A stretch of 64,000 bases of DNA from Gammaproteobacteria bacterium (GTDB lineage: Bacteria; Pseudomonadota; Gammaproteobacteria; GCA-001735895): assembly GCA_030066085.1 (NCBI GenBank), contig JASJCI010000014.1:1-64000 (forward strand). Reading direction: 5' to 3'. The notes under the pieces are model-generated. The model ran no database searches. It saw only the letters and a list, made by a program, of their open reading frames with translations, and was not told the origin of the DNA. A program made the translations under genes and the position numbers. Shown in pieces: positions 5,294 through 10,547 of the stretch (position 1 is the stretch's first letter; every line of letters starts with the position of its first letter).

Positions 5294-7246
5294 ATGGCGA
5301 AAGTCCCGACCAGGCGGATTTTGCAGGCGCTGCTCGCCTGGATGCTAGTCGCGCTCACCGGGCCGGCGCTTGCCGACGACAAACCGCTGCTGATGGAGGG
5401 CAAGAAGACCCTTTATCAACGCGTGCTCAGCGTGCCCGACGCGCGTCTTTACGAGGCGCCGTCCGATACCGCCGCGTCGAGCGCCATCGTGCCCTTCAGC
5501 GTGCTCTACGTCTACGACAAGGGCGAAGACTGGCTCAAGGTGGGTTACGACAGCTTCGGTCGCATTGCCGGCTGGGTCGAGCGTGAGAGCGCGATCGCCT
5601 GGAACCAGGCGCTGACGGTGTCCTTCAAGGACCCGCAGGACATCCAGCGGGTAATGCTGTTCAACAGCAAGGACGCGCTCAAGACCATGGTCGAGGGATA
5701 CGACACCGCGGGTTACCAGCAACTCTACGACGCCGTGGTCGCCGGACAGCCGCCGGAGAAGTCGCCGGTGATCGCGATCCAGCCCGAGGCGCACCTCGAA
5801 ATACGCGACAACTTTTACCTCGTGCCGATCAAGCAGCACGAGGACGTTTACCTCGGCAACGAGCAGGCGCGCCTGCTCGAGATCGCCAGCGTGCCGCTGG
5901 AAGATTCCAGCGACATCGATGCGCTGGCGCAAAGCGGCGAGAGCCGCAGCTATCGCAGCGGTATCCATTTCGTCATCGATTCGACCCAGTCGATGGGGCC
6001 CTATATCGACCGCACCCGCGAGGCGGTTGCGCGCGTGTACGAGGCGATCGAACGCCAGGGCCTGACCAACCAGGTCAGCTTCGGCCTGACCGCCTACCGC
6101 GACAATCTCGACCAGGTGCCGGAGCTCGAATACCTGACGCAGCGCTATGTCAGCCTGGAGCAGGGCACCGACGTGGAGCAGTTTTTCAAGCGCGTCAACA
6201 GCCTGAGCGCGTCCGAGGTGTCCAGCCGCGACTTCCGCGAAGACGCCTATGCCGGCATCAAGTCCGCGATCGACGATTCCGACTGGGAGCGATTCGATGC
6301 GCGTTACGTGGTGCTGATTACCGATGCCGGGCCGCGGGAAAGCTTCGATTCGCTCGGCGCCACGCGCCTCGGCGCGCAGGCCCTGCGCCAGCTGGCTTAC
6401 GACAAGGGCGTATCCATCTGGGTGCTGCACCTGCGCACGCCGTCGGCCGCCGCCAATCACGAAAAGGCCGAGAAGCTGTACAAGCAGGTGTCCTATTACC
6501 CCGGAATCGGCGATTTTTACTACGGCGTCAGCCTCGGCCAGGTCGACGAGTTCGGTACCGTGCTCGAGGTGCTCGCCAACCAGATCACGCAGCAGGTGCT
6601 CGCCACCACCAACGGTGTACCGCCGCTGCCGTTGCCCGAGCGCGACGAATCCCAGTCGCAGCTGGCGCAGTTGCAGGACCGGGTCGCCAAGCTCGGCAAC
6701 GCGCTGCGCATGCGCTACGTGCAGCGCGAGTCGGGCCAGCCGCTGCCCAAGGTGTTCGATGCCTGGATGGTGGACCGCGATTTCGTCAATCCCGAACGCT
6801 CCGCGGTCGACGTGCGCGTACTGTTGACCCGCGATCAGCTCAGCGATCTCAAGGATGTCATGCAGCAGGTGCTCGAGCTTGCCGAGGAAGGCGTATTGAG
6901 CCCGCAGAATTTCATCGACGACCTCAAGAGCCTGGCGGCGACCGTCAGCCGCGATCCGTCGTCGGTCGCGAGCAGCACCTCGGGCGCCGGCGCCAACCTC
7001 GCCGAAATGGGTTACATGCGCGAATACATCGAGGACCTGCCCTATACCGGCGAAGTCATGAACCTGACGCTCGAAACCTGGGAAGAATGGTCGGCCAAGA
7101 CGCAGATCGAGTTCATGCACCGGCTCGAAAGCAAGATCAACTATTACCAGGCGCTGCACGACCATACCGACCTGTGGGTTACCCCGGGCGGCGGGCCGGT
7201 CAGTGGCAGCTCCGTGTTCCCGGTAGCGCTCGAACTGTTACCCTAA
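5294..7246 (+). CDS. Secreted SH3b + von Willebrand factor A domain protein, PpkA C-terminus-like
   Basis: A 650-aa protein with a Sec signal peptide (cleavage after GPALA, about residue 27). An SH3b-like domain follows (residues about 35-105, VLYVYDKGEDWLKVG). A vWA domain spans about 222-430: a DxTxS metal site at Asp229-Ser233 in FVIDSTQSM, then LTAYRD and LITDAGPRE, then an unusual VLHLRTPSAAANHEKAEK segment. The SH3b-vWA pair, the DAGPRE motif and the HLRTP segment recall the extracytoplasmic half of PpkA of the Pseudomonas T6SS threonine-phosphorylation pathway, but no kinase domain is present. A C-terminal helical region of about 200 aa ends the protein. A clear GGAGA ribosome site precedes ATG 5294, and GTG of the ABC ATPase abuts the stop. 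Confidence 0.85.
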   Translation: MAKVPTRRILQALLAWMLVALTGPALADDKPLLMEGKKTLYQRVLSVPDARLYEAPSDTAASSAIVPFSVLYVYDKGEDWLKVGYDSFGRIAGWVERESAIAWNQALTVSFKDPQDIQRVMLFNSKDALKTMVEGYDTAGYQQLYDAVVAGQPPEKSPVIAIQPEAHLEIRDNFYLVPIKQHEDVYLGNEQARLLEIASVPLEDSSDIDALAQSGESRSYRSGIHFVIDSTQSMGPYIDRTREAVARVYEAIERQGLTNQVSFGLTAYRDNLDQVPELEYLTQRYVSLEQGTDVEQFFKRVNSLSASEVSSRDFREDAYAGIKSAIDDSDWERFDARYVVLITDAGPRESFDSLGATRLGAQALRQLAYDKGVSIWVLHLRTPSAAANHEKAEKLYKQVSYYPGIGDFYYGVSLGQVDEFGTVLEVLANQITQQVLATTNGVPPLPLPERDESQSQLAQLQDRVAKLGNALRMRYVQRESGQPLPKVFDAWMVDRDFVNPERSAVDVRVLLTRDQLSDLKDVMQQVLELAEEGVLSPQNFIDDLKSLAATVSRDPSSVASSTSGAGANLAEMGYMREYIEDLPYTGEVMNLTLETWEEWSAKTQIEFMHRLESKINYYQALHDHTDLWVTPGGGPVSGSSVFPVALELLP

Positions 7247-7978
7247 GTGACTGTCGTCTACAACCTCAAGAACGTCGTCAAGCAGCGCGTCAGCGATGAC
7301 GGCATCGGCTTTCGCCTGGTAGTGCCCGACATCCAGATCAGTGCGCAGGAGAATATCGCGCTGGTGGGGCACAGCGGCTGCGGCAAGAGCACGCTGCTCG
7401 ACATGCTGGCGCTGATCCTGGCGCCGGACGAATCCGAGCAGTTCGACCTGCACCCGGTGGGCGGCAAGGACGACAATATCGGCCAGCTGTGGAAGCGCAG
7501 CCGGCAAAGCCACCTGTCGCAGATCCGTAAACGTCACATCGGTTACGTGCTGCAGTCCGGCGGATTGCTGCCTTACCTCACCGTGCGCGAGAACATCGAG
7601 CTGCCGCGCAAGCTGCTCAAGCTGCCGGACGACGATTCGATCAACTCGCTGTCGCGCGTGCTCGGGATCCATCGCCAGCTCGACAAGCTGCCGGGCCTGC
7701 TTTCGGCCGGCGAACGCCAGCGCGCGGCCTTTGCGCGTGCTCTGTCGCACCGCCCGTCGATCCTGCTCGCCGACGAACCGACCGCCGCGCTCGATCCCAT
7801 TACCGCGCAGAAAATCATGGCGGTGGTCATGGAAGTCATCCGTGGACTCAAGATCACGCTGATCACGGCGAGCCATGACTGGGCCCACGTGTACAAGATG
7901 GAGCTGCGCACGCTGCGACAGGAATCGGAGCCGGTCGCGGACGGGCGCATCTACGAATCGAGGTTTAGCGACGGATGA
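7247..7978 (+). CDS. ABC transporter ATP-binding protein, TagT/LolD-like
   Basis: A 243-aa cytoplasmic ATPase of the MacB/LolD type. Walker A GHSGCGKST is at residues 41-49, the Q-loop at about 103, the signature LSAGE (a variant of LSGGQ) at 152-156 and Walker B ILLADEP at 172-178, with the switch His in ITASHDW. It starts with GTG 7247 directly after the TAA of the vWA gene and overlaps the permease by 4 bp, so the three are translationally linked. An insertion of roughly 25 residues between Walker A and the Q-loop (HPVGGKDDNIGQLWKRS) is unlike typical LolD. The neighbouring PpkA-like gene suggests the TagT role, which is inferred. Confidence 0.88.
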   Translation: MTVVYNLKNVVKQRVSDDGIGFRLVVPDIQISAQENIALVGHSGCGKSTLLDMLALILAPDESEQFDLHPVGGKDDNIGQLWKRSRQSHLSQIRKRHIGYVLQSGGLLPYLTVRENIELPRKLLKLPDDDSINSLSRVLGIHRQLDKLPGLLSAGERQRAAFARALSHRPSILLADEPTAALDPITAQKIMAVVMEVIRGLKITLITASHDWAHVYKMELRTLRQESEPVADGRIYESRFSDG

Positions 7979-9186
7979 CCCAGTTACCCAGCATCATACG
8001 ACTCAGTTTTCGCGACTACAGCCACGAGTGGCGCATGTCAGGCTGTTTCATTCTCGCGCTGGCCTCGGTGCTGGCGCCGATGCTGATCCTGTTCGGGCTC
8101 AAGTTCGGGGTGGTCAGTAGCATGGTGCACGAACTGGTGGAAAACCCGGTCAACCGCGAGATTCGGCCGGTCGGCAGCGGCCGTTACGACGACGCCTGGA
8201 TCGACGCTTACCGCGCGCGCGGTGACGTCGAGTTCGTGATCCCGAAAACCCGCGCGCTGGCGGCGACCATCCAGCTCAAGAGCGAGACCTCGGCGCGCAT
8301 CCTGTCGACCGAGATGCAGGCCACGGACAGCGGCGATCCGCTGCTGGCCCGCATGCCGCGGGTGCCGCGCGGCTACGGCGAGCTCATCCTGAGCCAGGCC
8401 GCGGCCAGCAAGCTCAACGTGGCGGCCGGCGATCGCATCGATGCCAGCCTGGCGCGCCAGTTCCAGGGCAAGCGCGAGCGCGTGCACCTGCCGCTGGACG
8501 TCATCGCGATTGCCGACGCGACCGTGACCACGCGCGCGGTCGCCTTCGTCAGTCTCGACCTGCTGATCGCCAGCGAAAACTTCAAGGACGGTCGCGCGGT
8601 GCCCGAACTCGAGTGGACGGGCAACAACGAAGACGGGGGCGAGCGGGTATACCCGTCGTTCCGGCTGTACGCGCGCTCGATCTACGATGTCGAGGGGCTG
8701 GTCAACGCCCTCGAGGCCGAGGGCGTGCGGGCCAAGGCGAACGTGGCCGAAATCACTACCGTGCAGTCCATCGACCGCAACCTGTCGGTGATCTTCTGGA
8801 TCATCGCCTGTGTCGGTGCGGTCGGCTTCTCGTTTTCGCTCGGCGCCAGCCTGTGGGCCAATGTCGATCGCAAGCGCAAGGAGCTCAGCGTGCTGCGGCT
8901 GGTGGGTTTCAAGAGCGGTCGCATCGTGTTGTTCCCGGTACTGCAGGCCTGCTACACGGCGCTGCTGGGGTGGTTACTCGCGGTGCTCGTCTACCTCGCG
9001 TTCGAGCACGTCATCAATTTTGTACTGGCGCCGTCGCTCAAGCTTGAGCGCGAACTGTGCTACCTGCTGACCGAGCATTTCATGTGGGCGCTGGGCCTGA
9101 CCGTTACCATCGCCATCTACGCGGCTATTCTCGGCGGCCTGCGCGCGGCCCGCATCCAGCCGTCGGACGGCCTGCGCGAGATCTAG
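7975..9186 (+). CDS. FtsX/MacB-family ABC permease, TagS/LolC-like
   Basis: A 403-aa inner-membrane permease with the four-helix FtsX topology: one helix near the N-terminus (residues about 21-46), a periplasmic domain of about 200 aa, then three helices. The last part contains WANVDRKRKELSVLRLVGFK, the cytoplasmic coupling segment typical of FtsX-like proteins, and it ends with RAARIQPSDGLREI, the usual MacB-family tail. ATG 7975 overlaps the ATPase stop. Such permeases work as mechanotransmitters or lipoprotein extractors rather than classical importers. With the ATPase it forms a complete exporter-type pair, and the PpkA-like neighbour points to a TagTS-like signalling role by inference. 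Confidence 0.87.
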   Translation: MTQLPSIIRLSFRDYSHEWRMSGCFILALASVLAPMLILFGLKFGVVSSMVHELVENPVNREIRPVGSGRYDDAWIDAYRARGDVEFVIPKTRALAATIQLKSETSARILSTEMQATDSGDPLLARMPRVPRGYGELILSQAAASKLNVAAGDRIDASLARQFQGKRERVHLPLDVIAIADATVTTRAVAFVSLDLLIASENFKDGRAVPELEWTGNNEDGGERVYPSFRLYARSIYDVEGLVNALEAEGVRAKANVAEITTVQSIDRNLSVIFWIIACVGAVGFSFSLGASLWANVDRKRKELSVLRLVGFKSGRIVLFPVLQACYTALLGWLLAVLVYLAFEHVINFVLAPSLKLERELCYLLTEHFMWALGLTVTIAIYAAILGGLRAARIQPSDGLREI

Positions 9187-9206: not shown

Positions 9207-9224
9207 TGTAGGAAAGATCCTACA
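9207..9224 (+). promoter_or_regulatory. GacA-type upstream activating sequence (candidate)
   Basis: A perfect 6+6+6 palindrome, TGTAGG-AAAGAT-CCTACA. The known GacA box upstream of rsmX/Y/Z genes is TGTAAG-N6-CTTACA; this site differs by one symmetrical base per arm. Its centre lies about 87 bp upstream of the predicted start of the GGA-rich RNA, within the range seen for rsm promoters. A partial second half-site (CCTACAG) lies at 9241-9247. Confidence 0.7.
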
Positions 9225-9290
9225 AAAACTGTTGCCAACCCCTACAGTAACAGCCGTTGCCCGGCCTGTATGCGGCCGGGGTGTAATGCT

Positions 9291-9296
9291 TATAAT
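9291..9296 (+). promoter_or_regulatory. -10 element of the GGA-rich small RNA
   Basis: A consensus TATAAT with no good -35 at 16-18 bp upstream (GTATGC or TGTATG). That is expected for a promoter that depends on an upstream activator such as GacA. The predicted transcription start is near 9303. Confidence 0.6.
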
Positions 9297-9302
9297 TTCA
9301 CC

Positions 9303-9445
9303 CGTACCCGCAGGACTCGGGTCATGGACGATGTGGATACGGAGCTACTCCCCGCATCACAGGCAGGATGCCTGGCAGGACGCTGCTGGATGAAATAGCA
9401 GGTAATCTTTGGCCCCCAGGTCTCCCCGGACCGGGGGCCTTTTTC
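9303..9445 (+). ncRNA. RsmY/RsmZ/CsrB-type CsrA-sequestering small RNA (candidate)
   Basis: About 143 nt between a TATAAT box and a strong terminator, with no convincing ORF. Seven GGA triplets occur before the terminator hairpin, at 9313, 9326, 9335, 9341, 9366, 9378 and 9388. Several sit in loops of small perfect hairpins: ACCCG/CGGGT around CAGGACT (9306-9322), CAGGC/GCCTG around AGGAT (9360-9374) and CTGCT/AGCAG around GGATGAAAT (9383-9401). CATGGACG at 9323-9330 matches the CANGGAYG motif of Rsm RNAs exactly. These RNAs titrate the translational repressor CsrA/RsmA. The GacA-like box upstream supports the call. It lies between the vWA/ABC cassette and holA. Confidence 0.8.
9411..9445 (+). 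terminator. Rho-independent terminator of the GGA-rich small RNA
   Basis: The stem is GGCCCCC (9411-9417) with GGGGGCC (9433-9439), extended inside by GGTC/GACC after a bulged A, and followed by a T-run at 9440-9444. It would end the small RNA and separate it and the cassette from holA. Confidence 0.9.
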
Positions 9446-9539: not shown

Positions 9540-10547
9540 ATGAGCAGGCCCCTCGACGCGCAAGATCCACAGCCGCTATACCTCGTTACCAGCAACGAAC
9601 CGCTGCTGTTGCGCGACTGGCTGGACCAGGCCCGCCGCGGACTGCGTGATGCGGGATTCGAGGACATCGTGACGCTGGCGGTCGAGTCCGGCTTCGACTG
9701 GAACGAGCTGGCCGGCGACAGCGACATGATGTCGCTTTTTTCCAGCCACAAGTGCCGGGTTCTGTCGCTACCCGGGGGTAAACCGGGTAGCCAGGGCGGC
9801 AAGGCGATCCAGGCCCTGTGCGCCGATCCGCCGCCGGGCGATGTCTACATCTTCGCGATGCCGGCGCTCGATCGCGCGAGCCGCAACGCGGCCTGGTTCA
9901 AGGCGATCCAGCAAGTGGGCGAGGTGGTCGAGATTCCGCCGGTATACGACAACCAGCTGGTGGACTGGCTGCTGCGCCGCGCCACGGACAAGGGTATCGC
10001 GATCGAGCCGCAGGCCGCGCAGTTTCTCGCCGAACGCACCGAGGGCAACCTGCTGGCCGCCGACCAGGAACTGGAAAAACTCGCGATTCGTTTTGCCGGC
10101 GACTCCGCGATCGGGTTCGACGCGATCGAGGACTCGGTGGCGCAGTCCGCGCGCTACAGCCATTTTGTACTGGTCGATGCCTGCCTCGCCGGCAAGGCAA
10201 AGCGGGCGTTGCGCATCCTGCGCAGCCTGCGCGGGGAAGGTTACGCCACCGGCCAGCTGCGCTGGGCCCTGCAGTCCACGCTGGAACAGCTCGGCCGCCT
10301 CAAGCAGGCCGAGCAGCGCGGCGGCATCGGCGATCGCCTGTGGCAATCGATGCGCATCTGGCGCGGCAAGCAGCGCCTGTACGAGGCCGCGTTGCGGCGC
10401 CTGACGCTGCCGCGAATAGAGCGTTTGCTGCAAAGCTGTGCTAAATTAGACCGCTTGGGCAAAGGTCAGGAAGAGCGCGAGTTCGCCGACAGCGACTGGC
10501 TCGAGGTCGAAATCCTGGTGGCCGATTTCAGTAGCAGGATTCAGTAG
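9540..10547 (+). CDS. holA: DNA polymerase III delta subunit
   Basis: Clamp-loader subunit that opens the beta sliding clamp, 335 aa from ATG 9540. Family signatures are [16 protein letters not shown] near the N-terminus, [16 protein letters not shown]-like sequence in domain I ([12 protein letters not shown]), and [18 protein letters not shown] with the alanine-rich C-terminal helical domain ([11 protein letters not shown]). The N-terminus is about 15-20 residues shorter than E. coli HolA, lacking the first helix; a GTG at 9522 would add only six residues. It normally follows lptE directly but here stands 4.9 kb away. The proA ATG lies 18 bp downstream. Confidence 0.92.

Follow-up and report, generated by a model that had tools for sequence, protein, structure and literature searches.

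A predicted GacA-controlled, CsrA-sequestering small RNA upstream of holA in a family of marine Gammaproteobacteria

Results and discussion

A GGA-rich element lies between an FtsX-type permease gene and holA

We analyzed the intergenic region preceding holA in a 64,000-nucleotide stretch of gammaproteobacterial DNA (the window). On its upstream side lies a cassette (5294-9186) that encodes a vWA-domain protein (650 aa), an ABC ATPase and an FtsX-type permease, and on its downstream side lies holA; these are the neighbors that a first-pass annotation had named when it proposed an Rsm-type small RNA in the gap. Across the family, permease sequences share 67-82% identity. The region is organized as follows.

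7975..9186, + strand: FtsX-type permease gene (upstream context of the RNA)
9207..9224, no strand assigned: GacA/UvrY-type palindrome TGTAGGAAAGATCCTACA, a perfect 18-bp inverted repeat and putative upstream activating sequence
9241..9246, no strand assigned: second, conserved half-site CCTACA (TAC invariant, TACA in most of 25 aligned promoters)
9291..9296, + strand: -10 box TATAAT, with no good -35 (from the sequence and aligned promoters)
9303..9444, + strand: predicted CsrA-sequestering small RNA of about 142 nt, its start inferred from the -10 box (covariance model R1 matches 9300-9444, a match that is not independent because the window's sequence is among the 22 homologues in the model)
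9540..10547, + strand: holA, DNA polymerase III delta (context)

The sequence marks on which the proposal had been built are all present: the TATAAT at 9291, seven GGA triplets (9313, 9326, 9335, 9341, 9366, 9378 and 9388), an exact CANGGAYG match (CATGGACG) at 9323, and a strong terminator, which consists of a G+C-rich hairpin followed by TTTTT (9411-9444) and contains an eighth GGA (9428). Dinucleotide shuffles of the 108 nt that precede the terminator contain 3.3 GGA on average, against the seven observed (p = 0.006), and a count this high is reached in just 0.04% of slices of that length taken from the window. Folding of the 143-nt sequence gives a minimum free energy of -61.3 kcal/mol (z = -2.2); in this structure GGA 9313 and 9388 are loop triplets, the latter in the CUGCU/AGCAG hairpin, and 9366 falls in the hairpin 3 loop or at its edge. 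Single-sequence folds leave about half of the GGA clearly open and no more, which we count against a CsrA-sequestering role. A coding reading was set aside: the overlapping open reading frames are purely mechanical, and the alignment of homologues contains gaps of one and two bases, which argue against coding. As judged from sequence, the element is intergenic and non-coding and has its own promoter and intrinsic terminator, like other members of the Csr/Rsm class.

Stems covary and five GGA sites are conserved

Homologues were collected by BLAST and then with R1 (22 sequences, 33 pairs). In the 22-sequence alignment, 93% of 724 pair cells hold standard pairs. Changes on both sides of a pair occur at 17 of the 33 pairs (80 cells), compared with a mean of 29 after shuffling, which retains relatedness, and at most 29 with slid partners, which removes it; the structure itself was derived mainly from the same alignment. 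The predicted parts of the RNA are listed below.

9306..9322, + strand: hairpin 1, loop GGA 9313 (21/22 loci by inspection of the alignment); all four of its consensus pairs vary on both sides
9323..9330, + strand: linker CAUGGACG, GGA 9326 (22/22 homologues by inspection of the alignment, 21/22 if counted in one alignment register)
9330..9358, + strand: hairpin 2 (GAUG...CAUC), its GGA 9335 and 9341 not conserved or paired
9361..9373, + strand: hairpin 3 (AGGC-AGGAU-GCCU), loop GGA 9366 (20/22)
9375..9383, + strand: mini-hairpin 4 (GC-AGGAC-GC), two pairs only, loop GGA 9378 (21/22)
9383..9401, + strand: hairpin 5 (CUGCU-GGAUGAAAU-AGCAG), loop GGA 9388 (16/22)
9398..9407, + strand: near-invariant GCAGGUAAUC (GCAGGTAATC), from the last hairpin to the terminator and not a GGA motif; GCAGGT in 22/22, a conservation that is partly by construction, the loci having been anchored on that word
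9411..9444, + strand: intrinsic terminator, 9 of 12 pairs with compensatory changes

The two-pair stem of hairpin 4 counts against the reading. The 15 unpaired GGA columns have a mean identity of 0.96, versus 0.72 for the other unpaired columns, and each of the five GGA sites left unpaired by the consensus structure is retained in 16-22 of the 22 loci. The earlier claim that the triplets sit in loops holds for these five (9313, 9326, 9366, 9378 and 9388, in loops or the linker) and fails for 9335 and 9341, which fall in an arm of hairpin 2. GGA positions that varied freely outside loops had been named as the pattern that would contradict an Rsm-type RNA; a search for that pattern returned the five conserved sites instead.

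A GacA-type palindrome stands at a fixed distance from the promoter

The strongest evidence, which the first-pass annotation did not mention, is the palindrome at 9207-9224. TGTAGGAAAGATCCTACA is of the TGTAAG-N6-CTTACA type bound by UvrY/GacA and matches the published UvrY site TGTAAGNNNNNNCTTACA (PMC4682653) except for a symmetrical A-G/T-C change at positions 5 and 14, so that the activator box of the class is present as a symmetrical variant of the published consensus. Exact TGTARG-N6-CYTACA occurs only twice in the 4.39-Mb genome, TGTAGGAAAGATCCTACA being one of the two occurrences, while the same pattern read backwards, used as a control, occurs once. The spacing between palindrome and -10 box is 82-85 bp in every one of the 22 promoters in which both elements could be located; 21 of these are the same-genus loci for which promoter sequence exists, and one comes from another genus. 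The lack of a good -35 is expected of an activator-dependent promoter.

The genome encodes CsrA and candidate GacA and BarA/GacS proteins

We searched the same genome for the proteins through which an RNA of this kind would work, and found candidates for all three of CsrA, GacA and GacS/BarA. There is one canonical CsrA. A response regulator gene next to uvrC and pgsA has UvrY/SirA/GacA as its best NCBIfam match, at 265 bits against an NCBI equivalog cut-off of 280 bits; the assignment was made from the NCBIfam ranking and gene order, and the query, a generic GacA-like sequence, was not its basis. A BarA/GacS-like tripartite histidine kinase with an sCache_4 domain is also encoded, and a search for kinases with this domain matched E. 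coli alone among 14 control genomes.

The computation directly shows where the element lies, how its promoter is built, that its structure and GGA sites are conserved, and that partner genes are present. From them we infer that the element is transcribed, that GacA binds its promoter, and that the RNA binds and sequesters CsrA. In the proposed mechanism, the BarA/GacS kinase would phosphorylate GacA, which would then bind the 9207-9224 palindrome, probably together with the half-site at 9241-9246, and switch on a promoter that has a good -10 box and no good -35. The resulting RNA would offer four GGA in loops and one in the linker to CsrA dimers and draw CsrA off mRNA leaders, thereby relieving CsrA control. 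Conserved GGA, covarying stems, the GacA-box palindrome and the csrA, gacA and barA/gacS genes together support an Rsm-type assignment, and we consider it very probable that 9303-9444 encodes a small RNA that stands on its own and works in the manner of CsrB and RsmZ, switched by GacA and sequestering CsrA. These findings suggest a complete BarA-GacA-sRNA-CsrA pathway in a largely uncultured marine group.

The RNA appears to form a new sequence family within a known functional class

Rapid divergence is typical of Csr/Rsm sponge RNAs, and searches by sequence usually overlook them. Comparison with Infernal models, as the first-pass annotation had recommended, gave no match to Rfam RsmY, RsmZ/PrrB, RsmX, CsrB (RF00018) or CsrC at E values up to 10 for the window's element and 15 homologous loci, while E. 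coli csrB scored 380 bits in the same set-up. Across Rfam, gathering and permissive thresholds produced only unrelated, chance-level matches (anti-hemB and sX13), which we rejected. The open papers that we searched contain Csr RNA predictions for other genera and none for this group or beside holA; most subscription papers were outside the scope of that search. By sequence comparison, the RNA is a new family of a known working type.

Like Pseudomonas RsmX, RsmY and RsmZ, the window's RNA falls in a size class of roughly 110-145 nt, carries GGA in hairpin loops and linkers, follows a GacA-type palindrome and ends in an intrinsic terminator. It differs from them in lacking a match to their Rfam models, in its box (TGTAGG-N6-CCTACA rather than TGTAAG-N6-CTTACA), in its position between ftsX and holA, and in its conserved GCAGGUAAUC tail. 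With E. coli CsrB and CsrC it shares the proposed mode of action and a UvrY-type 18-bp inverted repeat upstream of the promoter (PMC4682653), but it has seven GGA where CsrB has 22 and CsrC 14 (PMC11882849), and its palindrome is centered at about -88 rather than near -183 as in csrB (PMC4682653). The Pf1, Pf2 and Pf3 RNAs of Pseudoalteromonas fuliginea are likewise lineage-specific, occur in several copies and were found by GGA content, promoter and terminator; unlike the window's RNA, they belong to another genus, carry 9-25 GGA and are experimentally verified (PMC11882849).

The conserved 3′ tail and base-pairing

CsrA sequestration does not account for GCAGGUAAUC; the segment may serve in RNA turnover or in base-pairing. 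In the fold of a single homologue, the GCAGGU tail pairs with the 5′ hairpin; others do not keep this pairing, which we rejected. A GacA-controlled RNA whose main activity is to pair with mRNAs via GCAGGUAAUC, with CsrA binding secondary or absent, would explain why the 9398-9407 segment, just before the terminator, is as conserved as the GGA loops, although anchoring of the loci on the segment inflates that figure. Such RNAs exist: Pseudomonas RgsA is GacA-controlled and about 120 nt long, like the window's RNA, and does not sequester RsmA (PMC2375449). However, RgsA has a single GGA and its control by GacA is thought to be indirect (PMC2375449), whereas the RNA studied here keeps five sites in loops and linker across 22 loci, and we regard a mainly base-pairing RNA as improbable.

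The RNA appears confined to one family and is not always closely followed by holA

The same element was found upstream of holA in relatives, as the first-pass annotation had suggested checking. It is present in 23 of the 31 genomes of the genus and scores above 50 bits in 3 of the 5 genomes of two sister genera. Contigs that reach both flanks have it in the gap between the FtsX-type permease gene and holA, with one exception, the Olavius algarvensis Gamma 3 symbiont. A class-wide model search of 274 genomes (11 candidates scored per genome under strict filters, so that distant relatives may be missed) yielded at most 23 bits outside the family, none of those matches having the exact box. When 84,980 species were scanned with a 23-nt pattern, true homologues (68-155 bits by the model) appeared only in this group's records, and the next best match reached 19 bits. 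As far as these searches found, the RNA appears to be confined to one family. The window's own genome gave no convincing second copy (next matches, 17 and 12 bits). One other genome of the set, G011, has the RNA on two contigs, through either a genuine duplication or duplicated assembly or strain sequence. DRLF01000058.1, labelled Thiolapillus brandeum HyVt-458, carries a homologue (69 bits) that scores like those in the sister-genus genomes.

Such regular linkage could indicate a cis-acting leader or attenuator of holA, since the RNA precedes holA in nearly all genomes with both on a contig and ends in a terminator. Against this, the distance between RNA and holA varies between loci, the palindrome is that of Csr/Rsm RNAs, and three relatives have adjacent ftsX and holA with no recognizable RNA between them. 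Moreover, the Olavius algarvensis Gamma 3 endosymbiont has an intact RNA and terminator on contig DS021198.1, with no holA found within 3.7 kb downstream. We judge a holA leader very improbable. A GGA-rich intergenic stretch or permease-operon 3′ UTR without a function of its own is hardly credible given the GGA excess and the conservation of promoter, structure and GGA sites, even if the terminator could serve the upstream operon.

The free-standing, CsrA-sequestering RNA that we favor draws support from roughly two dozen homologous loci, which show covariation and a fixed activator site, and its covariance model is now available for a largely uncultured marine gammaproteobacterial group that includes a symbiont of the gutless worm Olavius algarvensis. 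Counted against it are the missing Rfam Csr/Rsm match, the GacA score under the equivalog cut-off and the absence of the RNA from three relatives. Among these three, G009 retains an ftsX-holA interval of only about 25 nt, and G003 and G018 retain a decayed palindrome (TGTAGGAGCAGTCCTGCA and TGTAGGAAAATACCCACA, respectively); the remaining absences could be assembly gaps.

A second predicted RNA behind a GacA-type palindrome

In most genomes of the family, a palindrome of the GacA type also precedes a second predicted RNA, which is GGA-rich, ends in a terminator and is oriented divergently from a proline-iminopeptidase-like gene (loci L145-L151, L157 and L168-L195, with L180 near position 161,207 of contig G000:C16 in the window's genome). 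It has up to 14 GGA (L177), many members share a conserved UCUCUCCUCGAG segment, and an Rfam search with it gave no match. The copy in the window's genome (L180) has a one-mismatch palindrome and only three GGA, while in the two genomes where the holA-side RNA is lost and the second RNA is readable, the latter has at least four (G003) and eight (G009) GGA, a comparison of two cases that provides a lead rather than a test. The apparent loss of one RNA with its sibling kept makes these genomes a natural setting in which to study how far sibling Csr RNAs are redundant. A dual-function RNA, in which a CsrA sponge also uses its GCAGGUAAUC tail to pair with mRNAs or set RNase-dependent turnover, and in which the second RNA is its partner, with both lost or eroded in different genomes, is a speculative extension that we think unlikely.

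The other exact palindrome in the window's genome (G000:C1:34915-34932; about 1916-1933 of L034) lies approximately 100 nt before a 69-residue open reading frame that has no Pfam match and carries CACAGGGACGTC, a sequence similar to a CsrA site, ahead of its start; the same palindrome and reading frame are paired in a second genome (G001, L154).
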